Assembly (NCBI RefSeq): GCF_003970675.1
Contig: NZ_CP034563.1
Location: 1,121,501-1,185,500, forward strand
Reading direction: 5' to 3'
Length of the DNA stretch: 64,000 nt
From: Flammeovirga pectinis
Lineage (GTDB): Bacteria > Bacteroidota > Bacteroidia > Cytophagales > Flammeovirgaceae
Positions 22,861-40,510 of the stretch are shown one piece after another (position 1 is the stretch's first letter; each line of letters opens with the position of its first letter). The notes under the pieces were generated by a model. It had not been told where the DNA came from. It searched no databases and saw only the letters and a program-made list of their open reading frames with translations. The position numbers and the translations under genes are program-made.

Positions 22861-23268
22861 ATGAAAAACCTATTCTATATTCTGTTTTGCTTATGTATTG
22901 GAATATCTTGTACAAAGGTTGAATCTAATAGTAATAAACAAGTACTTACATTAAATGAAGGCAATAAATGGAAAGTAGATACTGAAATGAAAAGCAGTAT
23001 TGATAAATCTCAAGAGTTAATTTTAATATTTAATTCTAACCAAAAAAATGACTATAATAAACTAGCTAATGATTTAAAATATCAAAACGATGTTCTAATT
23101 AAAAGCTGTACTATGACTGGAGAAAGTCATGAGATGCTTCATAAATGGCTTGTACCAAATATGAAACTTATTGATAGTCTATCAAAGGCTACTAAGCCTA
23201 ATGAACAAAAAGAAATAGTTGTTGAGTTGATTGAATCATACAACACATTTAACACCTACTTCAATTAA
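22861..23268 (+). CDS. Small lipoprotein of unknown function
   Basis: A 135-residue protein with a signal peptide ending in lipobox GISC. The mature part is helical and charged (GNKWKVDTEMKSSIDKSQELI, then CTMTGESHEMLHKWLVPNMKLIDSL) and resembles small Bacteroidota lipoproteins with an HxxLHxW-type segment, but no function is known. It probably forms an operon with the cupin gene and ends at a strong terminator. Confidence 0.65.
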   Translation: MKNLFYILFCLCIGISCTKVESNSNKQVLTLNEGNKWKVDTEMKSSIDKSQELILIFNSNQKNDYNKLANDLKYQNDVLIKSCTMTGESHEMLHKWLVPNMKLIDSLSKATKPNEQKEIVVELIESYNTFNTYFN

Positions 23269-23312
23269 AAATAAGAGGTTGAAAAAATTAATTTTTTCAA
23301 CCTCTTATTTTT
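23267..23312. terminator. Bidirectional terminator
   Basis: A perfect 46-base palindrome built on AATAAGAGGTTG and CAACCTCTTATT, with A- and T-runs at its edges. It lies between the plus-strand lipoprotein gene and the convergent SDR gene. Confidence 0.85.
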
Positions 23313-23343
23313 GCATTTTTATAAACTGATAACTTAGAAAAAA

Positions 23344-25880: not shown

Positions 25881-27197
25881 CAATACTTCGGTAAAATAAT
25901 ATATTTTTCAAGCAGCAATTTGACCTAATTTTCGAATCATCTCAAATTGCTGTTTATTTTTTTCAACATCTACATCAATTCGAAATACACTAAAAATCTT
26001 TTTTAGTATTAACTCATTGAAATAGAGTGTTTTTATGTTAGCCATTGAAAAGGGTCCTCTTTCCTTTTTTTCTTGATTGATCCAATGAAAAGCCTTAGCA
26101 ATTGAGACAGAAGTAAGTGCCATATTAGTATGAAAATGAATTTTATTTTTACTTATTCCTTGACAACCTGTAAGACTTGTATGCTGTTTTGCATCTCGAA
26201 AAAGAAATTCTATGTGAAAACGTAATCTGTAATAATTGAAAATTTGGAAGGCCTCTTGATTTAGATCTGTTGAAAAGAATATTTTTTGCTTGAGCTTTTG
26301 ATTTTTAAATTGAACAAGTGCAATCATTACTTCTCTTTTTAAAGCAACGCTATAAATTTTTGCAGAGTACAAATAATATAAGTCTGTATCATCTTCTAAC
26401 TGAAAAATATCGAGATCAATATTTTTCCAGTCTACTTTTCCGTTGAATTTTTTAGGTCTACCGCGTTTTCCTGTTTTTGGTCCTTCAAATAAATACCTTG
26501 CATTCATATCACCTCTAAATCGACTAAGTACAGTAAAGCCAGCCTCATCTAATGGTCGAACAAACTTTTCTTTTGCAAAATAAGCATCAGCTACAACATA
26601 CTTAGAATGCGTCAATAATTGCTCTTTATGTGTAAGCAAAGTGGATGCATAATGGTCAACTAAACTCATGCCTTTCTCCTTTAATTCTGTAATTGAAGGC
26701 GTTTGGATTGCATCATAATGAAAGGCATTACGACTTTCTACATCAACAATTCCAATACCTGATAAATCCAATCCTTTTTGAGCTTTACCAGCACATCCGG
26801 ACCAATATTTCCCTAAACCATAGGTTTTCTTACCACTTTTACTGAGGTAAACAGGATCGAAAGCTATTATTTTTTCATCACCACAATGTTCATTGATCAA
26901 ATGATGATTAAATTCTGAAAAAGAAAAACCTGATTCGAAATTATTTCGGTAAGTTTTTTCACTATATGAACCATACCTTGATAACTGAAGAAAATTAATT
27001 TTCCCCTTGATACTCAAGAAGAGTATAAAACATTCTGTTAAAAAGTTGACTTTACTTTTTCTTAAGTCAGACATTTTTGATAATATTGGTCCTATGAAAG
27101 CTCTGCTTTCCATAATTAGCTGTTTTTTGTTGGTAGGACTTCAAAAATACAGCTTTTTATGTTTTATAGGGATTTTGAAAAAATTACCGAAGTATTG
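25881..27197 (-). mobile_element. IS4-family insertion sequence with 14-bp inverted repeats
   Basis: The ends are CAATACTTCGGTAA on the left and its exact complement on the right, 1317 bases apart, flanked by TTATTA on both sides (25875-25880 and 27198-27203), a likely 6-bp target duplication. One intact transposase gene fills the element, so it is probably a recent and possibly active insertion. It lies just outside the left end of the cassette array. Confidence 0.85.
25908..27113 (-). CDS. IS4-family DDE transposase
   Basis: A 401-residue transposase. The acidic triad is visible: D in IIAFDPVYLSK, D in YVVADAYFAK, and E in YYRLRFHIEFLFRDAKQH. The last segment fits the IS4 Y-(2)-R-(3)-E-(6)-K signature exactly. 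The frame is complete. The terminal inverted repeats lie 27 and 84 bases outside the coding region. Confidence 0.9.
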   Translation of the reverse strand: MESRAFIGPILSKMSDLRKSKVNFLTECFILFLSIKGKINFLQLSRYGSYSEKTYRNNFESGFSFSEFNHHLINEHCGDEKIIAFDPVYLSKSGKKTYGLGKYWSGCAGKAQKGLDLSGIGIVDVESRNAFHYDAIQTPSITELKEKGMSLVDHYASTLLTHKEQLLTHSKYVVADAYFAKEKFVRPLDEAGFTVLSRFRGDMNARYLFEGPKTGKRGRPKKFNGKVDWKNIDLDIFQLEDDTDLYYLYSAKIYSVALKREVMIALVQFKNQKLKQKIFFSTDLNQEAFQIFNYYRLRFHIEFLFRDAKQHTSLTGCQGISKNKIHFHTNMALTSVSIAKAFHWINQEKKERGPFSMANIKTLYFNELILKKIFSVFRIDVDVEKNKQQFEMIRKLGQIAA

Positions 27198-27458
27198 TTA
27201 TTAAAAACACTTAATATACAGTATATCTTATTCTCTATTTGGGAAATTAACCTTCTTTGTCAATTTACTATTTAGTGTATTATGGTTATCCCTTAAGAAA
27301 GGTGGTACTAAAAATTTCATGTACTGTAGTCTAATAGTATAAACCATGAGCATTAATTCTGAACATCATTAAGTCGACTTTTTTTTCTTGTATTTTCATT
27401 CATCTCTTACGATCTATTTAGGTTTTATTTAATAACAATGTACAGTTTTTTTAATTAT

Positions 27459-27523
27459 TGCCAATTTAAATGCTAAACTACGAGCGTGAAAACATTGGGC
27501 AACCATGAAGTTTTAGCTATTGT
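27459..27523 (+). repeat. attC-like site A0, left half (split by group II intron)
   Basis: TGCTAAACT (27471-27479) pairs with AGTTTTAGC (27509-27517), leaving one unpaired base, as in site A5. The outer left box, TGCCAAT, is degenerate. The right box is cut by the intron: ATTGT at 27519-27523 joins TATAC at 31933 to rebuild GTTATAC. This is the leftmost recognisable site of the array. Confidence 0.55.
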
Positions 27524-27675
27524 GTGTATCCAAAATAGGCACAGTCTTATTTTAAAGATAAAATTATCTTCTAGAGGGTGCAAGTCCCTTATATGCGGGA
27601 TTGTATATATTAATCGAAAACTACACCACTTATTACTTCAAAAGTGCAGCACTTTCAAACCAAAAATAATGGCTT

Positions 27676-28443
27676 TTATTCAGTATTTGCAAGTAAATTT
27701 TCTTTTGTTTTTTTCATTCTGTAGGATTCTCCATTCATGTTGATATAAATTGATTGGTGATTTAACCTGTCTACCATTGCAGCCGTTAATACTTTATCAT
27801 GAAAAATTTCAGTCCATCTATCGAAGCCTAAATTTGTAGTAATGATGGTTGATTTATTATCTGTTCTGATAGAAAGTAATGAAAATAACATTTCTGCCGA
27901 AGCCTTATCGAAGGAGATATATCCAAATTCATCACAGATGACAAGGTCATATTTTTCGAATCTATTTTCAAAAACTGTTTGACTTCTACTTTCTTTAGCT
28001 TCTCTGAGCTGAGTGACTAATCTTGGCACAGAAGTGAAAAGAACAGAGTAGCCTTCCATGCATGCTTTTACGCCTAACCCTATTGCCATATGCGTCTTTC
28101 CAGTACCAGGATTACCCGCTAAAATTACATTCTGCTTTTCTTCTAAAAAAGAAAGTTCATTTAACAAGGGTAATTTGGCTTGAGCATCTTGGGGTAAGTC
28201 ATTTAGCACAAGATCATGGAGGTATTTCATGGAAGGAAAATGAGCTCTTTTGAGTCGTTCCTTATGTCTTCTTTCAATTCGATGATGATACTCTAACTCT
28301 AACAGCTCTAATAAAAAATCTTCGTATGTTTTATTTTCAATAATAGCTTGCTTCGCTATTTTCGAAAACTCTTTATTGATAATAGACAACCGTAAATCTT
28401 TAGTCAGTAATGCGATACGGTCTTTGTGATGTATTGATTTCAT
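27676..28443 (-). CDS. istB: IS21-type helper ATPase
   Basis: A 255-residue IstB-type AAA+ protein, related to DnaC, that assists the IstA transposase in target capture. It has the Walker A GNPGTGKTH, Walker B VICDEFG, and the family segments YHHRIERRHKERLKRAHFP and TAAMVDRLNHQS. Its start lies 9 bases after the end of istA. The frame is complete. Confidence 0.92.
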   Translation of the reverse strand: MKSIHHKDRIALLTKDLRLSIINKEFSKIAKQAIIENKTYEDFLLELLELEYHHRIERRHKERLKRAHFPSMKYLHDLVLNDLPQDAQAKLPLLNELSFLEEKQNVILAGNPGTGKTHMAIGLGVKACMEGYSVLFTSVPRLVTQLREAKESRSQTVFENRFEKYDLVICDEFGYISFDKASAEMLFSLLSIRTDNKSTIITTNLGFDRWTEIFHDKVLTAAMVDRLNHQSIYINMNGESYRMKKTKENLLANTE

Positions 28444-28452
28444 CTTTTTATT

Positions 28453-29991
28453 TTAGTTTTGTAATGAAGAAGTATTCATTTGAGAATGTGCTAATAATAG
28501 CCGTTCACTATACTGTTCTATTTCATCCTCTTTAGAAGTGACAGCAGATGGGGTTTCTGCACTATAAAGCATTTGTAAAAGAGCATAATCGATTTTACTT
28601 TGAGGTGCTTTCTGCTGGTAAAACTCTATTTTCTCTTCCAACTCTTTAATGCTAATCTTCTCTGTACGCATCCATTGGAGTACTTGTATGTATTCCTTTT
28701 CATTTCCTTTAAAAAACTGATGATAAAGTGTTTTAAAACCTGTTTGTACTTGTTGTAATGCACTTGAGTGAGCCAAAGCCCCTGGTTTTTTAGAGAAGGT
28801 ATTCAAGTAGTCATAAATATCAATATACCATTGATTTTTAGTGTGATGCCTCATTTTAGTGACAATGATTTGCTCTTTGTCATCTAAAACATGAAATCTT
28901 GACGTTTCTATTTTTAAAGTGACGTACTTTCTTTTTAGCTTTTCGGGAATGGAATAATGATTACTATCCAAATAAACACAATGGTATTTATTGATCGCTA
29001 ACTTCTTTAAAATAGCAGTTTGGTAAGCTGTTACAGGAACTGATCGCATATAGTTTAGTTCTTCTTTTAAGAGAACTTCTGCTACTTCTTTTTGTGCTTT
29101 AGGGGGCTTATTATTAAGTAGAATAAGTTGTTGTTCTAAATGGAGATTCGCCTTCTCTAAATCATCAAATTTTGTTGACAGACTAAACGATTTTCTACGG
29201 ATATACTCAACACTACGTTCTACATTTCCTTTTTCATTACCACTATAAGCATTACAAAAGCGATATTGAAACTGATAATAAGCAGATAGTTTCAAGAGCT
29301 CATCTGTGGCAATTTTCTCTTTAGGATTATAGGAATATTTCTTAACAGCAACTCTCATATTATCGTAAACAATTTCTTTCGGAACACCTCCAATATGATA
29401 AAGAAACAGATTATGACTTTCTAGAAAGCTCTGCATATCCTGACGGTAGAATAAGTAAGCCCAACGGTAATTGCTATACTTATTCGTAAATACAGCCATC
29501 TGTAGCCTTCTTTCCTGCCCACCTAGTTCAAGACGAACTTCACCCCAATCAAACTCAATATTTTCTCCTGCCTGATAAGACTGTTTAAGGTAGATTTTCT
29601 GGTGGTTGGATTGCTCTTGTTTACGAACATAATTACAAACAGTAGTATACCCAATGAGGTGCCCTTTTTGCTGTAAATACTCATAAATGTCATGCTTATT
29701 CATGAGTTGTTTAGAACGCCCTTTCTGTCTATTCTCTTTGTTTCTATTCAAACAATCTGCAATATCTTCAACTACTTCTACTGTTAATCTTTTCTTGGGA
29801 CGAGAGGTGATTTCCCGATATTGAGGAGCACTTAATATATTGGTTCCTGATTGTTGAAGAACTTCATGTTCATCAATATATTTTTTGACTGTTCTAAAGT
29901 TAAGACCCAGCTCACGAGCTAAGCTTCTTTTTGATTTTCCATTGGTGTAGTAACCTACGATTACTGCAGCTTTTTTATTCATACTAATCAC
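28453..29991 (-). CDS. istA: IS21-type transposase
   Basis: A 512-residue DDE transposase of the IS21 family. It has an N-terminal helix-turn-helix region (YYTNGKSKRSLARELGLNFRTVKKYI), an rve integrase core starting EFDWGEVRLELGG with the first catalytic D, YDNMRVAVKKYS with the second, and CNAYSGNEKGNVERSVEYIRR with the catalytic E. The C-terminal half is the usual IstA tail. It is intact and upstream of istB. Confidence 0.92.
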   Translation of the reverse strand: MISMNKKAAVIVGYYTNGKSKRSLARELGLNFRTVKKYIDEHEVLQQSGTNILSAPQYREITSRPKKRLTVEVVEDIADCLNRNKENRQKGRSKQLMNKHDIYEYLQQKGHLIGYTTVCNYVRKQEQSNHQKIYLKQSYQAGENIEFDWGEVRLELGGQERRLQMAVFTNKYSNYRWAYLFYRQDMQSFLESHNLFLYHIGGVPKEIVYDNMRVAVKKYSYNPKEKIATDELLKLSAYYQFQYRFCNAYSGNEKGNVERSVEYIRRKSFSLSTKFDDLEKANLHLEQQLILLNNKPPKAQKEVAEVLLKEELNYMRSVPVTAYQTAILKKLAINKYHCVYLDSNHYSIPEKLKRKYVTLKIETSRFHVLDDKEQIIVTKMRHHTKNQWYIDIYDYLNTFSKKPGALAHSSALQQVQTGFKTLYHQFFKGNEKEYIQVLQWMRTEKISIKELEEKIEFYQQKAPQSKIDYALLQMLYSAETPSAVTSKEDEIEQYSERLLLAHSQMNTSSLQN

Positions 29992-30572
29992 ATTTAAGTA
30001 TCTACAAAAAGTAAATACTATTCAAATTTAATTTCGATTAGTGCTGCACTTTTTAAGTAATAGGGTGTTGCAGTTTTGGGTTAATACTTACAGGGATACG
30101 ATCCCGAAGCATTAGCAAGTGACAAGGTGGTTTTCCGTGAGGAATGCACTGAAGTAAGTCAAACGGCAAAAGTTGGTATTGACAAACATTCCTGAGAACG
30201 AGAGTTTGAAAGTATATCGCAAAGCGAGACATAAGAGGCATCATTAATGGGATGAGCAAGCACATCTTTGTGAAGTCCAAAGGCGATCTAGCTCCACGAC
30301 TATGCTGTGGCTTAATGATGTAGATATAGCAGTGATCAATGGAAAGAAGGTGTCCTTACTTGGGGAGATCTCTTCGTTGCAGATTCAACAAGAGAAGTCA
30401 GCCGAGGTCGTAGTAGGTAATAAAAGTACCGACAAGTTTCGGAGAACTCACCTTACTGAAGGACTGAAGGTTACAGTGTCTCAAATTTTTAATGGAGGCA
30501 AGAAATGTTGACACAGCAGTGGAATTTCTTGCTAGCCTTAAAGAAGAGAGACTAGGAATTTTAATGTAGATT

Positions 30573-31847
30573 ATGATAGAAAAAGTTGTATCAAAAGTAA
30601 ACATGTATAACGCTTATAAGCGTGTTTTTAGTAATGGCGGTGGTGCTGGTGTCGATGGAATGACCCTCGTTAGATTGCACTTTCACCTTAACAAGACATG
30701 GCCTATCAAAAAGCAACTTCTACTAGAAGGTCGGTTTCTTCCACAACCTATAAAAGGTGTGGAAATTCCAAAACCTAATGGCAAGAAGCGACTTCTTGGT
30801 ATTCCTACTGTTGAGGATCGACTTATTCAACAAGCAATGCTCCAGGTATTATCTCCTATTTTTGATAAAGATTTTTCTACACATAGTTATGGATTTAGAC
30901 CCAATAAAAGTGCACATCAAGCACTTCAAACATCACTAGCTTATATCAATAATGGCTATCAGAAAATTATAGATATTGATCTGAAAAGTTTCTTCGACGA
31001 AGTAGATCATAGTATTTTACTAGAACTAGTCTATAGAAAAGTAAAATGCTCAATGGTCATGAAATTACTTCGAAAGTTTCTAAGAGCTCCTATTTTAATT
31101 CAAGGGAAATTACAGAAAAGACGAAAAGGTGTTCCTCAAGGAGGCCCATTAAGTCCGTTACTTTCTAATATTGTCTTACATGAATTGGATCAAATTCTAG
31201 AAGCTAGAGGTTTACTTTTTATACGATTTGCTGATGATTTCAGTATCTACACAAAGTCTGCAAAAGCAGCCAAACGTGTAGGAAATAGTATCTATTGTTT
31301 TCTAAAAGAACATCTAAAACTTCCAATAAATAGAGAGAAAAGTGGGCTAAGGAAACCGCATCAATTTGAGGTACTCGGCTACACTTTTGTTCCTAGTTAT
31401 AAGAAGGGTGCTAAAGGGAAATTTCAGTTAGTGGCAAAACAAAAAGCATGGGAAAGATTGAAATATTCTCTAAAAGAGGTCACTTGTAAAACCAAACCTA
31501 TGCGTTTTGACGAACGCATCAAGAAACTTCTAGAAGTGCAACGTGGATGGGTGAATTATTTTAAGCTAGGAAGCATCAAGTTGAAACTTAAAAAGTTAGA
31601 CGAATGGCTTCGAAATAGGCTTCGTTACTGCATTTGGCACGACTGGAAGAAACCCGAACGTAAGCGTAAAAACTTAATCCGTTTAGGTATTCCTCAAGGT
31701 CAGGCATATGCATGGAGTCGAACGCGAAAAGGTGGTTGGGCTGTAGCTCAAAGTCCTATTCTTAACACAACAATTACGTTGGGTAGGTTAAGACAAAGAG
31801 GCTACATTTCTATGATAGATATTTACACTAAGACAACCGAAAAGTAG
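30573..31847 (+). CDS. Group II intron reverse transcriptase/maturase
   Basis: A 424-residue intron-encoded protein. The RT motifs are in order: GVDGMTL, FLPQPIKGVEIPKPNGKKRLLGIPTVEDRLIQQA, YGFRPNKSAHQA, IDIDLKSFFDEVDH, RKGVPQGGPLSPLLSNIVL, the catalytic FADDFSIY, and INREKSGLRKPHQFEVLGYTF. A maturase/X region follows (FDERIKKLLEVQRGWVNYFKLGSIK, then RLRYCIWHDWKKPERKRKNLIRLGIP). No HNH endonuclease domain is seen, in line with class C introns, which lack one. It would splice the intron and copy it into new sites, but its RNA is now interrupted in the 5' part by an IS21 element. Confidence 0.92.
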   Translation: MIEKVVSKVNMYNAYKRVFSNGGGAGVDGMTLVRLHFHLNKTWPIKKQLLLEGRFLPQPIKGVEIPKPNGKKRLLGIPTVEDRLIQQAMLQVLSPIFDKDFSTHSYGFRPNKSAHQALQTSLAYINNGYQKIIDIDLKSFFDEVDHSILLELVYRKVKCSMVMKLLRKFLRAPILIQGKLQKRRKGVPQGGPLSPLLSNIVLHELDQILEARGLLFIRFADDFSIYTKSAKAAKRVGNSIYCFLKEHLKLPINREKSGLRKPHQFEVLGYTFVPSYKKGAKGKFQLVAKQKAWERLKYSLKEVTCKTKPMRFDERIKKLLEVQRGWVNYFKLGSIKLKLKKLDEWLRNRLRYCIWHDWKKPERKRKNLIRLGIPQGQAYAWSRTRKGGWAVAQSPILNTTITLGRLRQRGYISMIDIYTKTTEK

Positions 31848-31932
31848 CCAACCGCCGTATACGAGACCCGTACGTACGGTGGTGTGAGAGGCTCTCCCTG
31901 TCAGTTCTTACTGACGGGGCGGTCTACTCGAT

Positions 31933-32330
31933 TATACTGTGTATATTTTTGTATTTCTAATTGTATTATGAAAGTACTGAGACTTAAAAGTTTTACCAAA
32001 CGTGAACATGATTAATTGAGAAAAATCTAAAATTAAGCTGAACGTTGAAAGACTAAACCAATTTTTAATACTCTGACTTAATTGAAAAGTGAATTGACTT
32101 TTGACCAATTTCGTGTTGAAAAATATCCTTTCTATTAGTTTAATTCTTCAGACAGAAATGACTTCACTCCTGTTCCAATTTTTATTCATACTAAACCGTG
32201 CGAATCGCACGACTGCAAAAAATGAGAACGATAATAACTAATGCTTTCTGCGGGTGAATCACCCGTGATTGAAAACTTGAAGTTTAAAACCTACGTGCAT
32301 TATGCAGATGCACTCACATAGATTATACAG
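31933..32330. repeat. Non-coding cassette, copy 1
   Basis: First of five near-identical ~400-base non-coding bodies. It starts in the 3' exon of the group II intron with TATACTGTGTATATTTTTG and ends before site A1. It contains two palindromes with AAT loops, CGTGCGAATCGCACG (32197-32211) and CGGGTGAATCACCCG (32251-32265). The longest frames starting with ATG that I checked around these are about 13 codons. Confidence 0.75.
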
Positions 32331-32397
32331 TATAACGCACTGACTAAATTGCGTAGAGGACGTGTCGGCCGATATGCTAATTTAGTTGATGTTATGC
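32331..32397. repeat. attC-like site A1
   Basis: Outer boxes TATAACG and GTTATGC flank a hairpin pairing GACTAAATT-GC with GC-T-AATTTAGT, with one unpaired base, around a GTGTCGGCCGATATG core. Confidence 0.75.
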
Positions 32398-32791
32398 TGT
32401 GTATATTTTTGTGTTTCTAATTGTATTCTGAAAGTACTGAGACTTAAAAGTTTTACCAAACGTGAACATGATTAATTGACAAAAAATCTAAAATTAAACT
32501 GAACGTTGAAAGACTAAACCAATTTTTAATACTCTGACTTAATTGAAAAGTGAATTGACTTTTGACCAATTTCGTGTTGAGAAACATCCTTTCTAATCGT
32601 TTAATTCTTCATACAGAAATGACTTCACTCCTGTTTCAATTTTTATTCATACTATACCGTGCGAATCGCACGACTGCAAAAAATGAGAAACATAATAACT
32701 AATGCTTTCTGCGGGTGAATCACCCGTGATTGAAAACTTGAAGTTTACAACCTACGTGCATTATGCAGATGAACTCGCATAGATTATACAG
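32398..32791. repeat. Non-coding cassette, copy 2 (compensated ends)
   Basis: Second copy of the non-coding cassette. Its left end GTTATGCTGT and right end ACAGCATAAC both differ from the other copies by one base, and the two changes compensate each other so the ends stay fully complementary. Both AAT-loop palindromes are preserved. Confidence 0.75.
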
Positions 32792-32858
32792 CATAACGCA
32801 CTGACTAAATTGCGTAGAGGACGTGTCGGCCGATATGCTAATTTAGTTGATGTTATAC
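32792..32858. repeat. attC-like site A2
   Basis: Boxes CATAACG and GTTATAC with the same inner hairpin as A1. It lies exactly 461 bases after A1. Confidence 0.75.
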
Positions 32859-33251
32859 TGTGTATATTTTTGTATTTCTAATTGTATTCTGAAAGTACTG
32901 AGACTTAAAAGTTTTACCAAACGTGAACATGATTAATTGAGAAAAATCTAAAATTAAACTGAACGTTGAAAGACTAAACCAATTTTTAATACTCTGACTT
33001 AATTGAAAAGTGAATTGACTTTTGACCAATTTCGTGTTGAAAAATATCCTTTCTATTAGTTTAATTCTTCAGACAGAAATGACTTCACTCCTGTTTCAAT
33101 TTTTATTCATACTAAACCGTGCGAATCGCACGACTGCAAAAAATGTGAACCATAATAACTAATGCTTTCTGCGGGTGAATCACCCGTGATTGAAAACTTG
33201 AAGTTTGCAACCTACGTGCATTATGCAGATGCACTCGCATAGATTATACAG
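32859..33251. repeat. Non-coding cassette, copy 3
   Basis: Third tandem copy, with the ends GTTATACTGT and ACAGTATAAC complementary over ten bases and both internal palindromes intact. Confidence 0.75.
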
Positions 33252-33318
33252 TATAACGCTTTGACTAAACTGCGAAGAGGACGTGTCGGCCGATATGCAG
33301 ATTTAGTTGATGTTAGCA
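33252..33318. repeat. attC-like site A3
   Basis: Boxes TATAACG and GTTAGCA. The hairpin variant GACTAAACTGCGAAG / GCAGATTTAGT keeps the same core. It lies 12 bases beyond the stop of the lipoprotein cassette gene. Confidence 0.75.
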
Positions 33319-33330
33319 ACTGTGACTATT

Positions 33331-34080
33331 TTAATTAATAATTTCTTCAGTGATAATACTATCTAAAAAGGTTATTGCTAGGTTGCCGTTACTTATTGAA
33401 TAAGTATAATGATTAGTCTCTGTTTTTCTTTCGTAACCTCCTTCAGATAAATCTTCATCAAAGATATTCTTTTCTACAACATATAGGGTTGAATCAGTTT
33501 TCCAATTTTCTGAAGAAGTTGTATGCCAACCTCCATCTCCTCCATAAATACCAAAATTAAAAATATTCTTTATTATATAATCTTTTGTATCTATTGATAT
33601 GAGAAACATTGTTCTACAGCAAACCTCATCTTCTTCAATGATCCTAAAATAAAAATAGTTACCTACTACAAAGTGGTCTATTAAGTAGAATGAATTATAA
33701 TCGTCAAATTTAAGTAAATCCTTTCCTAATGGTTCACCTTTTATATGAGACAGGAGTTCAGGTGGAAGATTTTTTAGTTGTTTATTAAAAGAAAACACTT
33801 CCTCGTAATTTAATTTCATGAGTCTTAAAGGTGTAGTATCTTTAATATAACCAATAAGAAATTCAAGGTCATTGGAATCCATAGGCTTACTATTAACTTT
33901 ATCTAATTCTACATCTTTTTTTTGAATTTCTTTAAGTGGTTTATTTTTTAAAGTATTCCTTTCTAAAACTATTTCCTGAGATATATCTAAATTTTTTGAT
34001 TTGATTTTATGTTTTGATTTTTCAATACAACCTTGAAGTAAAAGTATAAATGCAAAAAGTAGAATCAGATTATTTATCAT
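33331..34080 (-). CDS. Cassette-encoded lipoprotein of unknown function
   Basis: A 249-residue protein with a lipoprotein signal (lipobox LLQGC) and a Lys/Glu-rich linker to about residue 65, then a compact domain with two adjacent cysteines (DEVCCRTMFLISIDTKDYII) and a GIYGGDGGWHTT stretch. I do not recognise a family. It fills a cassette of about 860 bases between sites A3 and A4, whose ends GTTAGCAACT and AGTTGCTAAC are complementary over ten bases. The stop lies close to A3, as expected for a minus-strand cassette gene. Confidence 0.7.
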   Translation of the reverse strand: MINNLILLFAFILLLQGCIEKSKHKIKSKNLDISQEIVLERNTLKNKPLKEIQKKDVELDKVNSKPMDSNDLEFLIGYIKDTTPLRLMKLNYEEVFSFNKQLKNLPPELLSHIKGEPLGKDLLKFDDYNSFYLIDHFVVGNYFYFRIIEEDEVCCRTMFLISIDTKDYIIKNIFNFGIYGGDGGWHTTSSENWKTDSTLYVVEKNIFDEDLSEGGYERKTETNHYTYSISNGNLAITFLDSIITEEIIN

Positions 34081-34112
34081 TTTAATAGAAAGTTATTTTG
34101 AAAGACAATAGT

Positions 34113-34180
34113 TGCTAACGAATTGACTAAACTGCGAAGCGGACGTGTCGGCCGATATGCAGATTTAGTTGATGTTATAC
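34113..34180. repeat. attC-like site A4
   Basis: Boxes TGCTAAC and GTTATAC, with the A3-type hairpin (GACTAAACTGCGAAG / GCAGATTTAGT). Confidence 0.75.
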
Positions 34181-34573
34181 TGTGTATATTTTTGTATTTC
34201 TAATTGTATTCTGAAAGTACTGAGACTTAAAAGTTTTACCAAACGTGAACATGATTAATTGAGAAAAATCTAAAATTAAGCTGAACGTTGAAAGACTAAA
34301 CCAATTTTTAATACTCTGACTTAATTGAAAAGTGAATTGACTTTTGACCAATTTCGTGTTGAAAAATATCCTTTCTATTAGTTTAATTCCTCAGACAGAA
34401 ATGACTTCACTCCTGTTTCAATTTTTATTCATACTATACCGTGCGAATCGCACGACTGCAAAAAATGAGAACCATAATAAATAATGCTTTCTGCGGGTGA
34501 ATCACCCGTGATTGAAAACTTGAAGTTTACAACCTACGTGTATTATGCAGATGCACTCGCATAGATTATACAG
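34181..34573. repeat. Non-coding cassette, copy 4
   Basis: Fourth copy of the non-coding cassette, now isolated from the first three by the lipoprotein cassette. Both AAT-loop palindromes are preserved. Confidence 0.75.
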
Positions 34574-34643
34574 TATAACGAAATTGCTAAACTGCGAGCG
34601 AGGTCTCGTCGACCGAGACTTGGAGTTTTAGCTGATGTTGAAC
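34574..34643. repeat. attC-like site A5 (variant)
   Basis: Boxes TATAACG and GTTGAAC. The inner stem is different in sequence: TGCTAAACTGCGAGCG with AGTTTTAGC, one unpaired base, and a GGTCTCGTCGACCGAGACT core. Related to the split site A0. Confidence 0.7.
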
Positions 34644-34778
34644 AAAAGCTTCGCTAGCTAAAGCCCACAATCTCTTACCTTTAGAACTTAATTGAGTTTT
34701 TAAATTATAGTTTACTAAGATGAAAAAAAAGAGACAATAGTCGAAAAAGCGAAACGTGTTGTTCCTGATTTCAAAAAC

Positions 34779-35612
34779 ATGTTTGATCAAGTGTATCAAA
34801 ACATGACACTCAGTGGAAAATCTTCTTCTACTTTTCAAAACTACATCCGTACTATCGCTAGTATCTCATTGTATTTTAAAAAGATTCCACTTGAACTTTC
34901 CGACGATCAAATTAATGATTATCTGCTTCTTCTCAAAGAAAAACAAAACACTTCTTACACAATCTTTAAACATTATGTCTATGCTTTAAGATATGTCTTT
35001 AGATTAAGTGACAGAGATGATCGGGCCATACAATTACCCTCTTTGAAACGAAATGATACTATCCCTGATATTCTCTCTGTGGAAGAATGTAAAATCATTT
35101 TCAAAACACCTAAATATTTAAAACACCGTGTGTTATTTGCTTTAACCTACTCAGCAGGACTCAGAATAAGAGAAGTCGCCCGACTTAAAGTAGCTGATTT
35201 AGATTTTGATCGTATGACAATATATATACGCGATACAAAATACAGTAAGAATAGAATTGTTCCTCTCTCTAAAACTATGAAAGTTGGATTAGAAAAGTAT
35301 CTAAAACACGTAAGACCAAAGTTATGGTTATTTGAAGGATACGACTCCAATAAACACTTGGCTACAAATTCCATCGGATCATTATTCAGAGAAACTTTGA
35401 AGAAAACCAATATCAAAAAAAGAGTAACCATTCATACTTTAAGACATACCTATGCTACACATTGTATTGAAATGGGCATGGATCCTTTTACTTTAAAAGA
35501 ACTTTTGGGGCATGAAGCTTTACAAACAACCATGCTTTACCTCAATCTAGCTACCGTAAAAAAATCCAATTCCTTTTCTCCTTTTGATAAAATCTATGAA
35601 ACCAAAAATTGA
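34779..35612 (+). CDS. Tyrosine recombinase accompanying the IS91-type transposase
   Basis: A 277-residue site-specific recombinase. It has a SAM-like core-binding half, then the catalytic set: R in SAGLRIREVARL, K in DTKYSKNRIVPL, H-x-x-R in HTLRHTYATH, H in LLGHEALQTTM and Y in LYLNLA. Some IS91-family elements are described with such an extra recombinase. An upstream ATG at 34720 is followed by eight A and is out of frame; one more A would add residues like ETIVEKAKRVVPDFKN, so the N-terminus may be frameshifted or rely on slippage. It overlaps the transposase gene. Confidence 0.85.
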   Translation: MFDQVYQNMTLSGKSSSTFQNYIRTIASISLYFKKIPLELSDDQINDYLLLLKEKQNTSYTIFKHYVYALRYVFRLSDRDDRAIQLPSLKRNDTIPDILSVEECKIIFKTPKYLKHRVLFALTYSAGLRIREVARLKVADLDFDRMTIYIRDTKYSKNRIVPLSKTMKVGLEKYLKHVRPKLWLFEGYDSNKHLATNSIGSLFRETLKKTNIKKRVTIHTLRHTYATHCIEMGMDPFTLKELLGHEALQTTMLYLNLATVKKSNSFSPFDKIYETKN

Positions 35613-36744
35613 GATTGCTGAGATTCTTCATTCTCAATCTTTTTGGAGGCATTCTACTCAATTTCTGGCTACACAAAAAAAGGATTTACACGCCATGACT
35701 TTATGTAGAACGGCAAAACTTGGTAGACATATTGATCATTGTGGAAACTGTAAGGAAATCCGCATCTCTTATAATAGTTGCAGGAATAGAAACTGCCCTA
35801 AATGTCAGGCAACCTATAGAGAAAAATGGATTACAAAAAGAGAAGAAGAAGTCTTAAATGTACCTTATTTTCATACTGTTTTTACTATTCCGCATGTGCT
35901 AAATGACCTCTGTTTACACAACCCCGAAAAGATGTATACTCTTCTTTTCAAGGCGACTTGGAATACCCTTAAAACTTTTGGAGAAAGTACACTCAAGGGT
36001 GAAATGGGCATGATTGCAGTACTGCATACTTGGGGACAAAACTTAAGTTTGCACCCTCACCTGCATTGCATTATTCCAGGTGGTGCATTAGTAAATGGAA
36101 AACATTGGAAAGGAAGTGACAAAACAGGAAAATACCTTTTCAGTGCTAAAGGACTTGCTAAAATGTTTAGAGCGAAACTTTTAGCATTAATACGAAAAGA
36201 TGCTCATTTATATTCTTTTTTCACTGCTGAAATAGCTAGAAAATGTTTTGAAAAAGAATGGGTCGTCTATGCAAAAAGACCTTTTGGCGGTGCAAAACAA
36301 ATCATTGAATACTTAGGGAGATATACCCATAAAACTGCCATCTCTAATCATAGATTATTGCACTATTCTGACAAGAAAGTCACCTTCTCTTACAAAGATT
36401 ACAGAAATGGTGCGAAGAAAAATGAAATGACGCTTTCGGATGTAGAATTCATTAGAAGATATACGCAACATCTACTTCCAAAAGGGTTTAGAAGAATCAG
36501 ACATTTTGGCTTTTACAATGGAGCAATCAAGAAAGTAAAGATTGAAAAAATAAGAAAATCAATCGGACAAGAAACTCCGAAAATAAAAGAATGGGATTGG
36601 ATTAAACTGTCAAAAGAAAAACTAGGGTATGATCCTCTTTTATGTACTTGTTGTGGTAAAAGAGAGATGGTTATAATGCCTCGATTTGCTTCTCAAAGAG
36701 CTCCACCAAATCAGCAGAATGTAACGGAAAACAATTTAAAGTAA
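35584..36744 (+). CDS. IS91-family (HUH, Y1-type) transposase
   Basis: A 386-residue rolling-circle transposase. It has an N-terminal zinc-binding region (HCGNCKEIRISYNSCRNRNC, PKC), the HUH motif in LHPHLHCIIPGG near residue 160, and the catalytic tyrosine region YLGRYTHKTAISNHR near residue 245. A C-terminal LLCTCCGKREM may bind a second zinc. The start overlaps the recombinase gene by 29 bases; a second ATG at 35596 is equally possible. The protein seems full length and possibly active. Confidence 0.9.
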   Translation: MIKSMKPKIEIAEILHSQSFWRHSTQFLATQKKDLHAMTLCRTAKLGRHIDHCGNCKEIRISYNSCRNRNCPKCQATYREKWITKREEEVLNVPYFHTVFTIPHVLNDLCLHNPEKMYTLLFKATWNTLKTFGESTLKGEMGMIAVLHTWGQNLSLHPHLHCIIPGGALVNGKHWKGSDKTGKYLFSAKGLAKMFRAKLLALIRKDAHLYSFFTAEIARKCFEKEWVVYAKRPFGGAKQIIEYLGRYTHKTAISNHRLLHYSDKKVTFSYKDYRNGAKKNEMTLSDVEFIRRYTQHLLPKGFRRIRHFGFYNGAIKKVKIEKIRKSIGQETPKIKEWDWIKLSKEKLGYDPLLCTCCGKREMVIMPRFASQRAPPNQQNVTENNLK

Positions 36745-36991
36745 TAGATTTTTACTTCATTTTTTTGCTTATGAAAGTAAGCCCAGAGGCATACACCCCA
36801 AACTTGATGAAAATACTAATTTCTCATTAAGTTGGGGAATCTAATCTTCTTGAAAAAGTAATAAATGAAGAAGAAAATGAGATTATAGCTATCTCAAAAA
36901 AAACTATGCATTAAAAAAGACCTCTCATGAAAATGAAAAGTCTATCCTAACTCCCATACAGGGAAATGTATTTCAAGCAAACAACGCCTTT

Positions 36992-37040
36992 GTTCAACTA
37001 GGGCTTAAATTTTGGCCTTTCAAGCCAATCTAAGCCCTAA
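36992..37040. repeat. attC-like site A6a (short, atypical)
   Basis: GTTCAAC is followed by TAGGGCTTA...TAAGCCCTA with TTGGC/GCCAA inside, then ATTGTAA where GTTGTAA is expected. The last box still matches the far end of the adjoining cassette over TTGTAAATA, so the boundary is real although the crossover G is an A. The hairpin could also terminate the minus-strand gene at 37059. Confidence 0.55.
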
Positions 37041-37058
37041 TTATTGTAAATAGTGCTT

Positions 37059-37604
37059 TTAATTTGTTTCATTTATTTTTTTAATTCTAACCCATTTAAA
37101 AATTATCCAAATATATTCTACCTTATAATTCAACATTTGTTCATTGTAAAACATGGCGTGATAATCTTTATGAGTTGAAAAGCTCTCTACTAACTCAACT
37201 TTTGTGTAAAAAAAAGGGATTTCATTAATTTTACAAGCTGCAAAGCGAATGTAATTGTAAGCATTCTCTTCTTTAATTTTTTCATTATAAAACTCCAGAT
37301 GATTTCTGAAAAAATCCGACTTTTGAACTTTAACAGAATTACTCTTTTTATATCTTTTAGGATTAGTTTCTCCTACAATTTTTTCAACCTTTTCAATGTC
37401 ATTAAAAAACTCATTTCTACATGATGTAAAATAGAAACTATTCCAAATAGAATCATTTTCAACATTATATTTATTTGAAAGTCTTCTATTATTGAACTCT
37501 TTAAATTCATTAAATATTTGTTTTTCTAGTATAGAATCTCCAATTAGTAAATACAACCCAATTTGAAGAGTAAAAACAGTAAAGATTACTTTCTTAGTAG
37601 TCAT
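37059..37604 (-). CDS. Cassette-encoded secreted or membrane-anchored protein, unknown
   Basis: A 181-residue protein with one N-terminal hydrophobic segment (VIFTVFTLQIGLYLLIG) that acts as a signal or anchor, followed by a charged domain with two cysteines (TSCRNEF, FAACKINEIP) and a C-terminal hydrophobic YIWIIFKWVRIKK patch. No family is recognised. It forms one cassette of about 680 bases between A6a and A6, with the stop 18 bases from A6a. Confidence 0.65.
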   Translation of the reverse strand: MTTKKVIFTVFTLQIGLYLLIGDSILEKQIFNEFKEFNNRRLSNKYNVENDSIWNSFYFTSCRNEFFNDIEKVEKIVGETNPKRYKKSNSVKVQKSDFFRNHLEFYNEKIKEENAYNYIRFAACKINEIPFFYTKVELVESFSTHKDYHAMFYNEQMLNYKVEYIWIIFKWVRIKKINETN

Positions 37605-37652
37605 TTTTTTTTAATATCAAATTTTGAGATTTTGGTTGGACTTACGCATTAT

Positions 37653-37720
37653 TTACAACGCACTGACTAAATTGCGTAGAGGACGTGTCGGCCGATATGC
37701 TAATTTAGTTGATGTTATAC
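37653..37720. repeat. attC-like site A6
   Basis: Boxes TTACAAC and GTTATAC around the A1-type hairpin. Confidence 0.75.
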
Positions 37721-38113
37721 TGTGTATATTTTCGTATTTCTAATTGTATTCTGAAAGTACTGAGACTTAAAAGTTTTACCAAACGTGAACATGATTAATT
37801 GAGAAAAATCTAAAATTAAACTGAACGTTGAAAGACTAAACCAATTTTTAATACTCTGACTTAATTGAAAAGTGAATTGACTTTTGACCAATTTCGTGTT
37901 GAAAAATATCCTTTCTATTAGTTTAATTCTTCAGACAGAAATGACTTCACTCCTGTTCCAATTTTTATTCATAATAAACCGTGCGAATCGCACGACTGCA
38001 AAAAATGAGAACCATAATAACTAATACTTTCTGCGGGTGAATCACCCGTGATTGAAAACTTGAAGTTTACAACCTACGTGCATTATGCAGATGCACTCGC
38101 ATAGATTATACAG
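37721..38113. repeat. Non-coding cassette, copy 5
   Basis: Fifth copy, separated from the others by the IS91 cassette and one gene cassette. Ends are complementary (GTTATACTGT / ACAGTATAAC) and both palindromes are conserved. Confidence 0.75.
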
Positions 38114-38180
38114 TATAACGGGTTGACTAAATAGCGTAGAGGACGTGTCGGCCGATATGCTAATTTAGTTGATGTTAACC
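38114..38180. repeat. attC-like site A7
   Basis: Boxes TATAACG and GTTAACC around the same type of hairpin, with ATAGCG in place of ATTGCG in the left arm. Confidence 0.75.
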
Positions 38181-38202
38181 ACAGTTAAAGTTAAGTAATA
38201 GT

Positions 38203-38808
38203 TTAATAATTAAGAGAAGATGTTAAATCTAAAGATGGAGGTATTTCAAATCCATTATCTTTTATAAAATCTCTTGTTTCCATTAATGCAAAGCCTAATA
38301 AATTTAAGCCTCGCCAAAAGTGGACATTTCTGGAAGAATCACTATCTTTTGTTAAACCAATACCCCAAATTGTATCTACAGGACTAGCTTCAACCAATAC
38401 TCTTGATTGCGTATTTAGAAGATATTCTCCCATTTTCTTATGTTCAGTAAATTTATAAATATTGCCAATTTTTACAATCTCATAACGATACTTTTTCCAT
38501 ACCTCTTCGTCAAAGTTTTTTACTTGTCTACCTAGATCTTTTGCTTCTCCAGGTTTTTGACAATTAATGATTTGTTGATACACTATTTCATCGCCAAATA
38601 ATCTAGCTTTTTCGGCCATCATCCAATGTTCGGTAGTCAAGTAAGTAATACCTTTTATTGTAAAAGAGCTTTCATACCATTGACTAAAACAAAAGTTTCC
38701 TACTTCTTCTTTATGATTTTGTGTATGACCCCAAAAGAATAAAAACTTTATTGACGTATTTGATTCCTCTTTAATTTTTAGCCATTCAAGAGAATATTTT
38801 GCTTCCAT
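38203..38808 (-). CDS. NADAR-domain protein (YbiA-like), cassette-encoded
   Basis: A 201-residue NADAR/DUF1768 protein. Clear motifs are FCFSQWYESSFTIKGITYLTTEHWMMAEKARLF, IINCQKPGEAKDLGRQV and VDTIWGIGL...WRGLNLLGFALMETRD. The family includes YbiA, an N-glycosidase acting on riboflavin-pathway intermediates, and NADAR proteins reported to remove ADP-ribose from nucleic acid in toxin-antitoxin and defence contexts. Which activity applies here is unknown. The gene fills the cassette between A7 and A8, with ends GTTAACCACA and TGTGGTTAAC complementary over ten bases. Confidence 0.85.
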   Translation of the reverse strand: MEAKYSLEWLKIKEESNTSIKFLFFWGHTQNHKEEVGNFCFSQWYESSFTIKGITYLTTEHWMMAEKARLFGDEIVYQQIINCQKPGEAKDLGRQVKNFDEEVWKKYRYEIVKIGNIYKFTEHKKMGEYLLNTQSRVLVEASPVDTIWGIGLTKDSDSSRNVHFWRGLNLLGFALMETRDFIKDNGFEIPPSLDLTSSLNY

Positions 38809-38852
38809 TATATTGTATTGTTTCTATATGCTATTTACTTGATAATAATTGT

Positions 38853-38920
38853 GGTTAACGTTTCTTGTATGGTGCGTTTGCTGCCCGAAGGGAGCAAATG
38901 AACTATACAAATTGTTGTGT
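38853..38920. repeat. attC-like site A8 (different sequence family)
   Basis: Boxes GGTTAAC and GTTGTGT flank an unrelated hairpin: TTGTATgGTgCgTTTGCT pairs with AGCAAAtGaACtATACAA around GCCCGAAGGG. The architecture of the other sites is kept with different bases. The stop of the PhyH gene lies within it. Confidence 0.7.
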
Positions 38921-39646
38921 GCTGGCTTTTTTTATTCCATAATGTTCCAACCAAGCCAGCGGTTCGGTTAGATTATGTCGATTAAACTCTAAATGTATTA
39001 CTCGCCTTTTCTTTCCGTTTGTGGTTCTATTCGAAGCATGTAAAGTCAGAGGTTTCATTAACATTACTCCACCTTTTTCTACTTCACAGATAAATTCATT
39101 TTCTAAATTCCAATCTTTTGAGTCAGCACGAATTATTCCATTTAAGTGAGATTTCGGAATTACTTTTAAAGCTCCATTATTTTTGTCCGTTTTGTCCAAA
39201 TGAATTCGAATGGTTATTGTGTCTTTTAAAATCTCAATCGGTGGTTGAACTCCGAATTGTCCTTTTTTAAAAGTCCAATTCACATAATTTTCCAAATCGG
39301 CTTTTTGATTAACTGATATGCTCAAATCTTGGTGATAAGCAACGAACCAATTCGATTCGCTTGGTTTGTCAAAATAAATGGCTTTTGTCAGGAAATATTG
39401 GGATTCGGAAAGGTTAGAAATTAAATCAATCAGTTTTCTGTTAAACAAGAGACTACTTAATTCAGGCACATTTTTAATTAATTGTCTAATTGCAAACAAG
39501 TCCTTTGTTTTCATAAACGAATTTCCGTCCTGTTCAGCATTTTCGATACAAGCTAAAATTTCGCTTAATTCGTTGTCTGAATACAAGTCAGCTAATACTG
39601 AATATCCATTTTCTTCAAGTTCTATTTTATTCTTTTTGTAATTCAT
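38903..39646 (-). CDS. Phytanoyl-CoA dioxygenase (PhyH) family protein, cassette-encoded
   Basis: A 247-residue Fe(II)/2-oxoglutarate-type dioxygenase. It has the metal-binding H-x-D in VAYHQDLSISV, the NNGALKVIPKSHLNGIIR strand, and the distal histidine and arginine in LTLHASNRTTNGKKRRVIHLEF. The family hydroxylates diverse small molecules; the substrate is not predictable. It fills the cassette between A8 and A9, with ends GTTGTGTGC and GCACACAAC complementary over nine bases. Its codon use looks less AT-rich than its neighbours, in line with separate origin. Confidence 0.85.
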   Translation of the reverse strand: MNYKKNKIELEENGYSVLADLYSDNELSEILACIENAEQDGNSFMKTKDLFAIRQLIKNVPELSSLLFNRKLIDLISNLSESQYFLTKAIYFDKPSESNWFVAYHQDLSISVNQKADLENYVNWTFKKGQFGVQPPIEILKDTITIRIHLDKTDKNNGALKVIPKSHLNGIIRADSKDWNLENEFICEVEKGGVMLMKPLTLHASNRTTNGKKRRVIHLEFNRHNLTEPLAWLEHYGIKKASTQQFV

Positions 39647-39658
39647 TTTTCAACTTGC

Positions 39659-39727
39659 ACACAACGGCACTGACTAAACTGCGAAGAGGACGTGTCGGCC
39701 GATATGCAGATTTAGTTGATGTTGTGC
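39659..39727. repeat. attC-like site A9
   Basis: Boxes ACACAAC and GTTGTGC around the A3-type hairpin (GACTAAACTGCGAAG / GCAGATTTAGT). Confidence 0.75.
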
Positions 39728-39737
39728 TTTCGTGATT

Positions 39738-40412
39738 TTAATTTGCTGGACTTTCAAAAACAAATTCTGATAAACAGACATCATTGTATTTGGTTCCAGG
39801 GTACAGTTCTATAATTTCGAATTTTAAGACGTCATTGTCTTTTAATGTGAATTTTCCATTTAGATTATATTCGCTTTTAAAAAATTCTTGAATATTCACT
39901 TTTTGATATTGCCAACTATCTGAAAGTTCAATAAGACAAACAGGATAGTTATTAAGATACATCTTTAATTGTTTTATTCTTCCATTTTCTAACCACAACT
40001 TTTCAGACTTACAATAACCGTTAAAAACTTCAATTATTCCTGAGAAGCAATAAACTTTACCATAACCTTCATATGAGTTTTTCCAATTGAACTGAAATGA
40101 AAAACTTTCTCCGATTCCATTACCTTCTTCTCCTTCAACCCATGCTGTTGTTAAGTTCAAATCAGATAAGTTATTAACTGAATAATTTAGATTTTCATTT
40201 TCTTTTAAAGTTGAACTAGCGGAAGCAGTCCCAATTAAACCAGAATGATAACCCCAAAATTCGCCATTGATTTGATCTATAAGTTTTGAAACATATTCAT
40301 CATCTGAAGGTTTTGCTATTTTAGAATAGATTACTTTCAACTCATTTTCCTGAGCAATACAATAGTTTAAACCTAATAGTTCAATTATTAATATGAATAA
40401 TAGTTTTCTCAA
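39738..40412 (-). CDS. Secreted protein with NADase-type glycan-binding (discoidin-like) domain, cassette-encoded
   Basis: A 224-residue protein with a signal peptide ending NYCIAQ. From about residue 58 it shows TASASSTLKENENLNYSVNN and LSDLNLTTAWVEGEEGNGIGES, the signature of the discoidin-like domain annotated as NADase-type glycan-binding. No catalytic domain is visible, so a carbohydrate-binding surface role is likely. It fills the cassette between A9 and A10, with ends GTTGTGCTT and AAGCACAAC complementary; the stop is 10 bases from A9. Confidence 0.75.
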   Translation of the reverse strand: MRKLLFILIIELLGLNYCIAQENELKVIYSKIAKPSDDEYVSKLIDQINGEFWGYHSGLIGTASASSTLKENENLNYSVNNLSDLNLTTAWVEGEEGNGIGESFSFQFNWKNSYEGYGKVYCFSGIIEVFNGYCKSEKLWLENGRIKQLKMYLNNYPVCLIELSDSWQYQKVNIQEFFKSEYNLNGKFTLKDNDVLKFEIIELYPGTKYNDVCLSEFVFESPAN

Positions 40413-40437
40413 GCTTGTAATTAGTTTGGTACATGAA

Positions 40438-40505
40438 GCACAACGCGTTGACTAAACTGCGAAGCGGACGTATCGGCCGATATGCAGATTTAGTTGATGT
40501 TGTGT
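40438..40505. repeat. attC-like site A10
   Basis: Boxes GCACAAC and GTTGTGT around the A3-type hairpin. Confidence 0.75.
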
Positions 40506-40510
40506 ACTTT

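Follow-up and report, generated by a model that had tools for sequence, protein, structure and literature searches.

What decides where a mobile intron settles in an array of hairpin repeats, and what does its choice say about the repeats themselves? The question is raised by a locus of Flammeovirga pectinis (genome of 6.68 Mb in three contigs), which was studied in a stretch of 64,000 nt (NZ_CP034563.1, positions 1,121,501–1,185,500; G000:C2); this whole stretch is termed the window here. In it an IS21-family insertion sequence lies within a class C (group IIC) intron, and the intron lies within an attC-like hairpin; this nested insertion is real. An array of attC-like repeats covers about 27459–40509. 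All repeats that repeat and pattern searches revealed lie on the plus strand, several open reading frames (ORFs) within the array are on the minus strand, and a tyrosine recombinase is encoded at 41339–42511 (minus). The explanation favoured here, to which we give a probability of roughly 0.86, is that an intron of a mainly Bacteroidota group IIC lineage entered this cassette array by retrotransposition into an attC-like hairpin, on its bottom strand, and that an IS21 element hit the intron later.

The intron and its IS21 element

The intron occupies 27524–31932, with exons that read ..GCTATTGT and TATACTG.. (i.e. ..TATTGT/TATACTG; a slash marks the junction). The same 3′ end (..CTACTCGAT/T) and 5′ start (GTGT..) are shared by L002, the second copy carried by this genome, and by homologues inserted elsewhere. 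Both boundaries given in the first-pass annotation, 27524 and 31932, are confirmed by L002, by the copies of F. pacifica (G007) and by other homologues. Domain V has CGC (AACCGCCGTATACG...), read in the window sequence as had been claimed, and we take this to be the IIC triad.

The Rfam model RF00029 scores 38.9 bits on 31850–31932, slightly below its gathering threshold of 40, and the 3′ ends of relatives score 40.3 to 42.1 where listed. Pieces of domains I–IV are matched at 30131–30354 and 30366–30464, and an Rfam search of 18 loci returned intron and tRNA families alone. The intron-encoded reverse transcriptase (RT) scores 377.2 bits with the group II RT/maturase model TIGR04416 (cut-off 300). 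Its best solved relative is the GsI-IIC RT (351 bits; the next, 7uim, has 341.9), which points to class C. By its RT and by its ribozyme domains, V–VI included, the window element is thus classed as a group IIC intron.

L002 has 98% RT identity; it is without the IS21 element and without about 520 nt that include the ORF start. L003 is an intact sister copy from F. pacifica with an RT 98% identical to that of the window. Among 59 distinct introns, a motif of the exon-binding site 1 (EBS1) type reads ACAG in 50 and ACAA in one, and was not found in eight; this supersedes a search for ACAAACA, present in only 2 of 69 intron rows as against 51 of 59 distinct introns for ACAG/ACAA. The motif may represent EBS1, in which case ACAG would pair with YTGT. 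The window copy can probably neither splice nor move, because of the IS21 element and the extra bases at the EBS1-type motif. Introns are also found in tandem (L031:141–142, possibly L063:96), one copy starting right at the 3′ end of another (..CTACTCGAT/GTGTG..).

A DNA comparison of three genomic copies sets the IS21 element at 27602–30092, a shared stretch of 2491 bp that runs from TGTATATATTAAT to TTAATACTTACA. The IstA protein matches three genomic places, and the three DNA copies, that of the window included, are 99.96–100% identical over the 2491 bp. The 5-bp duplications differ from copy to copy: GGGAT in the window (27597–27601 and 30093–30097), ATCAC in L151 and TAATG in L153. With istA and istB, TG..CA ends and a short target duplication, the element belongs to the IS21 family, and nothing about it is unusual. 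The ends proposed at first, 27615–30080 with a TTAAT duplication, are overturned by the three-copy comparison, as TTAAT lies inside the IS ends. The intron stem proposed at the same time (CGGGAT..TGTA with TACA..ATCCCG) also falls, its TGTA..TACA part being the terminal repeat of IS21 itself, and the intron length of 1.94 kb becomes 1913 nt once IS21 and one GGGAT are removed (4409 − 2491 − 5). After this removal the junction bases are one off from those of L009, an intact F. pacifica copy, and of L002 (GCGGGATACGATCCCG vs GCGGGGTACGATCCCG). A candidate extra stretch of 24 bp beside IS21 in the window intron was ruled out by the comparison of the three copies. Another copy of the window's IS21 is found elsewhere in the genome, next to three sites of the hairpin model R1 described below (L149, G000:C2:130000–137000).

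Site choice across the intron lineage

Relatives of the intron were collected by a scan of bacterial genomes with short peptides, and the 79 loci used are the best of 174. Bacteroidota account for 76 of the 79, judged by title with the genera assigned by us; the other three (L014, L037, L052) are all metagenome-assembled. Profiles of the intron ends gave a junction table with 60 distinct sites where both ends are present, i.e. the window and 59 other copies. The site statistics omit L021 and L058, whose 3′ ends were misaligned, L073, which duplicates L072, and L031, where the intron directly adjoins another. They also omit loci for which only one end of the intron is available, or that have at most 110 bases ahead of the intron or fewer than 10 behind it.

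The junction is GT/T in all 60 sites and TGT/T in 58. An AAC is found no more than 12 nt before the left arm of the upstream stem in 42 sites (13% in shuffled upstream sequence), at an offset of −8 or −9 in 36 of these 42. The arrangement AAC..GT/T corresponds to the layout of an attC R box, with the intron splitting the R″ box. In the two loci with annotation, the genes that flank the intron most closely, left and right, are on the opposite strand, and those at a greater distance have either orientation. According to excerpts of PMC7923331, group IIC-attC introns (S.ma.I2) have a class C RT and an orientation opposite to that of the cassettes, and their insertion point is in TTGT/T at R″ of the attC bottom strand. 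The present lineage follows this same rule of insertion. As to the homologues, the expectation of common boundaries, domain V and site type stood for the ends, for domain V and for most sites; it did not for L003, which is at a terminator-like hairpin.

At the window's own site, the right exon opens a 460-bp unit, further copies of which follow GTTATAC or GTTATGC in the window; this agrees with the earlier statement that removal of the intron rebuilds GTTATAC. The window also reads TTGT/T at the R″ box, as had been stated, with the intron opposite to the cassette genes. The joined site aligns with the array site 34570–34655 with a score of 42, which none of 1000 shuffles matched. There are five near-identical 460-bp cassette-like units in the window (31933–38122), the first of which has no listed ORF of 80 amino acids (aa).

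A course of events can be proposed. What is observed is that GT and T flank the intron, that its strand is not that of the cassette genes, and that the majority of the other copies examined are placed alike at many attC-like hairpins. Its ribonucleoprotein would recognise the folded single-stranded bottom strand, with the hairpin replacing intron-binding site 2 (IBS2). EBS1, which is ACAG in most relatives, would pair with IBS1 (YTGT), and the RNA would reverse-splice after TGT. The RT, which is without an endonuclease, may then copy the intron from a replication-fork primer. A hairpin in place of IBS2 and priming at the fork are described for IIC introns in excerpts of PMC7923331 and PMC4424553. 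Later, an IS21 copy would have jumped into intron domain I with the 5-bp duplication GGGAT.

The first-pass annotation saw in the insertion independent evidence that attC hairpins are what the host machinery recognises at these sites. What survives of this is independent evidence of a hairpin that is exposed and has an R box of attC type. Use by a host recombinase was over-read, because the selecting agent is the intron ribonucleoprotein and not a host recombinase, because L003 follows a terminator-like hairpin and because the array recombinase is without the IntI-specific insert. The intron thus marks exposed attC-like hairpins; that the neighbouring recombinase recombines them is suggested by the layout.

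Hairpin arrays and their spread

A profile of empty sites led to uninterrupted hairpin copies beside the introns, of which 22 were aligned. They fold into an R box, a stem of 12 + 4 bp with five unpaired columns on the left against one on the right, and an extended terminal part. In 16 of the 21 pairs both partners vary and still pair. All 22 sites are on the strand of the RT. R1, a model of the Bacteroidota attC-like hairpins of about 135 nt, has 70 matches (E ≤ 0.01) in the 50 intron loci searched, counting the split sites, and every one of them is on the RT's strand too. In Polaribacter filamentus (G038:C13:1451317–1535384) all 24 sites in the first 40 kb of an array are on the minus strand; of the 21 ORFs with 90 aa or more in its first 20 kb, 18 are on the plus strand. 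This arrangement is that of integron cassettes with an intron on the attC bottom strand, as for IIC-attC introns.

The hairpins are widespread. R1 was scored at 27 to 150 candidate positions in each genome, and sites (E ≤ 1e-8) turned up in 87 of 119 Bacteroidia genomes drawn evenly. Seven of the 119, including F. pectinis itself, have the intron (E ≤ 1e-130). As a control, R1 gave no match at E ≤ 1 on 11 plasmid records, three of them with class 1 integron regions, where no place passed the first look and the filters were stricter; on 11 local stretches without filters nothing was better than E 0.9. Because R1 does not recognise the attC sites of those class 1 integrons, the R1 sites are attC-like in layout but lie outside the class 1 attC sequence family.

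Within the window, R1 has a single good match (38851–38924) and places eight short repeats correctly and on the right strand with E 0.07 to 2.8. Since the short repeats score weakly, among off-array hits of similar strength, what links the window's short sites to the longer ones is chiefly the R box, the orientation and the choice made by the intron. As an integron array the locus has R/L boxes, one orientation and alternating ORFs, with weak scores from the model for its short sites.

Searches of the open-licence literature gave no title or abstract that deals with hairpin arrays of this kind or with introns inserted in attC-like sites of Bacteroidota. Two published points count against novelty. 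Bacteroidota are named among phyla with integrons in excerpts of PMC8618304 and PMC9668308, and attC sites in a Polaribacter phage, one of them recombined by IntI1, are described in excerpts of PMC9892861.

The recombinase at the array end

The tyrosine recombinase at the end of the window array, P0006, scores 218.3 bits with the integron integrase model (TIGR02249, cut-off 265) and 216.1 with a XerA-type model (cut-off 220). Compared with the IntI1 of L117, it is without an insert of 44 columns. The insert is also missing from the recombinase that heads the P. filamentus array and from one next to an array in G009; these three were the proteins compared for it. Insert-less tyrosine recombinases at array ends lie at 41339–42511 of the window, at L145:372–1526 and at L147:1283–2140. 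The additional domain is a defining feature of IntI according to excerpts of PMC9668308, and the window array seems to have no IntI integrase that carries it. No integrase over the TIGR02249 cut-off was found in 38 genomes, that of F. pectinis included, and none in P. filamentus.

Eleven genomes were selected for clustered sites and searched for relatives of P0006 (E ≤ 1e-40). Nine have one, that of G065 with an internal stop; two, G093 and G070, have none. In six (G127, G113, G065, G048, G139, G129) the relative is on the same contig as the run of listed sites, 1.1 to 5.4 kb from the same end of it. In G069 it is at the other array end, and in G133 and G092 there is no site on its contig among the sites listed. 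Transcription is towards the array in four of the six, as in the window and in P. filamentus, and away from it in two, as in G009. Another candidate for the array integrase, P0002, was rejected, as it precedes an IS91-type transposase (Y2_Tnp, Zn_Tnp_IS91). This IS91-type pair of tyrosine recombinase and Y2 transposase (34779–36744) is inside the array, after the site at 34580–34645.

Relation to known group IIC introns

Kl.pn.I3 is presumably another group IIC-attC intron. The references used for this class are L117–L119, neighbours of class 1 integron cassettes. The stretches of L117 and L119 have an annotated intI1; that of L118 shows sul1, qacEdelta1 and cassette genes with no intI1 annotated. 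By eye, they are inserted in TTGT/T, the same rule as in the Bacteroidota family. The plasmid hits L110–L115 were rejected as IIC-attC references: L110–L113 follow terminator-like hairpins (by eye), the 5′ end of L114 was not found and that of L115 is unclear.

The RT tree holds 47 of 92 distinct RT rows, with the F. pacifica and G001 proteins (L003, L004, L075) outside it, and ten of its rows are labelled as terminator introns (L114, L115 and L123 not being shown at terminators). The 32 rows of the Bacteroidota-dominated family form one clade (100/99). L117–L119 form a clade of their own (100/100), which groups with nine other class C introns (99/96), and most of these nine follow terminator-like hairpins. 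RT identity between the family and L117–L119 is 37–39%. Forcing the two attC-seeking groups into one clade costs 18.1 log units, with a P-value of 0.043 in the approximately unbiased (AU) test. The rejection is modest, because there are three reference rows and the program flagged long outgroup branches. Thus the comparison with IIC-attC introns proposed in the first-pass annotation goes against common membership at the protein level: the tree places the family outside the clade of L117–L119, and the window intron would not belong to the known IIC-attC protein lineage, at the modest strength of the AU test.

The present family also differs from group IIC-attC introns in its hosts, which are mainly Bacteroidota, and in its targets, hairpins of about 135 nt whose model misses the class 1 integron plasmids. 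Terminator IIC introns (L110–L113, L116, L120, L122, with GsI-IIC as class C protein) resemble it in the class C RT and in a domain V region with AACCGCC. By eye they follow hairpins with T-rich tails, whereas the present family mostly splits a GTT inside the stem. Integrons, and clusters of attC sites lacking integrases (CALIN), are similar to the arrays in their same-strand hairpin sites, AAC..GTT boxes, alternating ORFs and recombinase at one end. They differ in that the window recombinase is without the IntI insert and that R1 does not match class 1 integron plasmids.

Weighing the explanations

Several points weigh against insertion into an attC-like hairpin. The window site fails the AAC test. 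Its left half alone scores 40 against the array site and 36 against an unrelated place at 41181. Its outer box is ambiguous, as the strongest pairing of TATTGT/TATA is AATAACAATG at 27431–27440, outside the start at 27459. Because the AAC test fails and this pairing lies outside 27459, the left border of the split site is uncertain, and the window's own site is the weak point of the case. Of the claim that the intron splits an attC, then, the TTGT/T, the strand and the R″ half hold, and the AAC is not where it is expected. In sequence alone, GT/GTGT repeats make the 5′ junction ambiguous by 2 nt. The window's short repeats are weak under R1, whose second-best hit there is off the array (23262–23316, minus, E 0.061). 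Beyond the window, 18 of the 60 sites have no AAC at the expected place, so that the specificity of the intron is not exclusive. These include the window, L002, the terminator-like L003 and 15 more. Some carry GAC, CATC or CACC there, and in three the best stem is at the very start of the stretch; the L002 hairpin pairs across the junction, yet fails the test.

These AAC-less sites bear on the idea that the intron simply shows generic IIC behaviour, i.e. that any terminator-like hairpin with a T-rich tail is recognised and the attC look is incidental. L003, intact and so close to the window's intron, follows such a hairpin, and so by eye do the more distant plasmid class C introns L110–L113, L116, L120 and L122 (L114, L115 and L123 could not be told). 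However, a GTT is split in 60 of 60 sites, an AAC stands at a near-fixed offset beyond the stem in 36 of 60, and the same hairpins occur uninterrupted in same-strand arrays with covarying stems; generic recognition is disfavoured and seems very unlikely. A recent move into Bacteroidota of an ordinary intron from the IIC-attC lineage known in class 1 and proteobacterial integrons would agree with the common rule of insertion and strand and with the TTGT/T of L117–L119. The low RT identity, the separate Bacteroidota clade, the grouping of L117–L119 with mostly terminator-type introns and the modest rejection of a single clade make such a transfer quite improbable.

The repeats might also be hairpins of some other mobile system (e.g. 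IS200/IS605-like or REP-like), with the intron and the recombinase as mere neighbours. The absence of an integrase over the TIGR02249 cut-off in the 38 genomes and P. filamentus fits this idea, as does the failure of R1 to detect sites in the class 1 integron regions of three plasmids. Yet sites alternate with opposite-strand ORFs, as the P. filamentus counts given above show, the AAC/GTT R boxes are conserved, and recombinases are found at array ends, namely in the window, in P. filamentus and in six of the 11 genomes chosen for clustered sites. An unrelated hairpin system is therefore judged unlikely. Retrotransposition of a mainly Bacteroidota IIC lineage into an attC-like hairpin of a cassette array is preferred to each of the three.

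Features of the locus

Table 1. Features of the nested insertion and of the attC-like array (window coordinates)
Feature	Position	Strand	Remarks
5′ exon, left part of split attC-like hairpin (bottom strand)	27459–27523	+	stem GCTAAACT / AGTTTTAGC; outer box CCAAT, not YYAAC, or alternative outer box 27431–27440; aligns with site 34570–34655; no AAC at expected place
Intron, 5′ part	27524–27601	+	starts GTGTATCC (L009, L002: GTGTGCCC); final 5 bases are the IS21 target duplication GGGAT
IS21-family element	27602–30092	−	2491 bp, ends TGTA..TACA; one of three near-identical genomic copies
istB (ATPase helper), 255 aa	27676–28443	−	PF01695, 215.8 bits
istA (transposase), 512 aa	28453–29991	−	PF22483 above cut-off (35.8 vs 27); PF00665 below cut-off (27.6 vs 32.6)
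Intron, 3′ part	30093–31932	+	begins with second GGGAT copy
Intron domain I region	30131–30354	+	RF02001, 43.2 bits (gathering 32)
About 34 nt more than L009 at EBS1-type motif	30189–30228	+	L009 has GACGAACAG there
Intron domain region	30366–30464	+	RF01998, 37.1 bits (gathering 35)
Intron-encoded RT/maturase, class C, 424 aa	30573–31847	+	Pfam RVT_1 and GIIM; no endonuclease domain
Intron domains V–VI, CGC, 3′ end ..CTACTCGAT	31850–31932	+	RF00029, 38.9 bits (gathering 40)
3′ exon TATAC.. (rest of R″ box) and cassette-like unit owning the split site	31933–32340	−	no ORF of 80 aa listed
Uninterrupted attC-like array site, intron's strand	32328–32401	+	R1 hits of 9.6 to 16.7 bits for such short sites (weak; off-array hits similar)
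Further uninterrupted attC-like sites	32789–32862, 33249–33322, 34111–34184, 37651–37724, 38111–38184, 39657–39731, 40436–40509	+	repeat/pattern search
attC-like site missed by R1	34580–34645	+	seen by eye
attC-like site, best R1 match of the window	38851–38924	+	31.2 bits, E 3.5e-5
Tyrosine recombinase P0006 at array end, 390 aa	41339–42511	−	without IntI-specific insert

Two array genes have recognisable domains: 38203–38808 a NADAR domain, and 39738–40412 a NADase translocation/glycan-binding domain. To the left of the array (25888–27200), a DDE transposase gene (25908–27113) lies between inverted repeats seen by eye.

Biological meaning

The wider picture, for which the chances appear somewhat better than even, is that environmental Bacteroidia widely carry an integron-like system. 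It would consist of arrays of attC-like sites of about 135 nt with cassettes, of a XerA/IntI-like recombinase without the insert described as essential in IntI, and of its own IIC introns, which would have adopted R″ insertion separately from the introns of class 1 integrons. If this is true, the integron-like system of Bacteroidia is under-detected, because its integrase falls below the standard model cut-off.

Group II introns serve here as a natural probe of single-stranded DNA hairpins, as their insertion points mark R″ boxes without an integron model. Here these points led to a covarying hairpin family that is matched in 87 of the 119 sampled Bacteroidia genomes. The intact copies at two F. 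pacifica sites are material for the study of hairpin choice by IIC introns. Should the insert-less recombinase move these cassettes, integron-type recombination would not depend on the IntI insert, and an extensive system of gene exchange in an abundant phylum would be open to testing.

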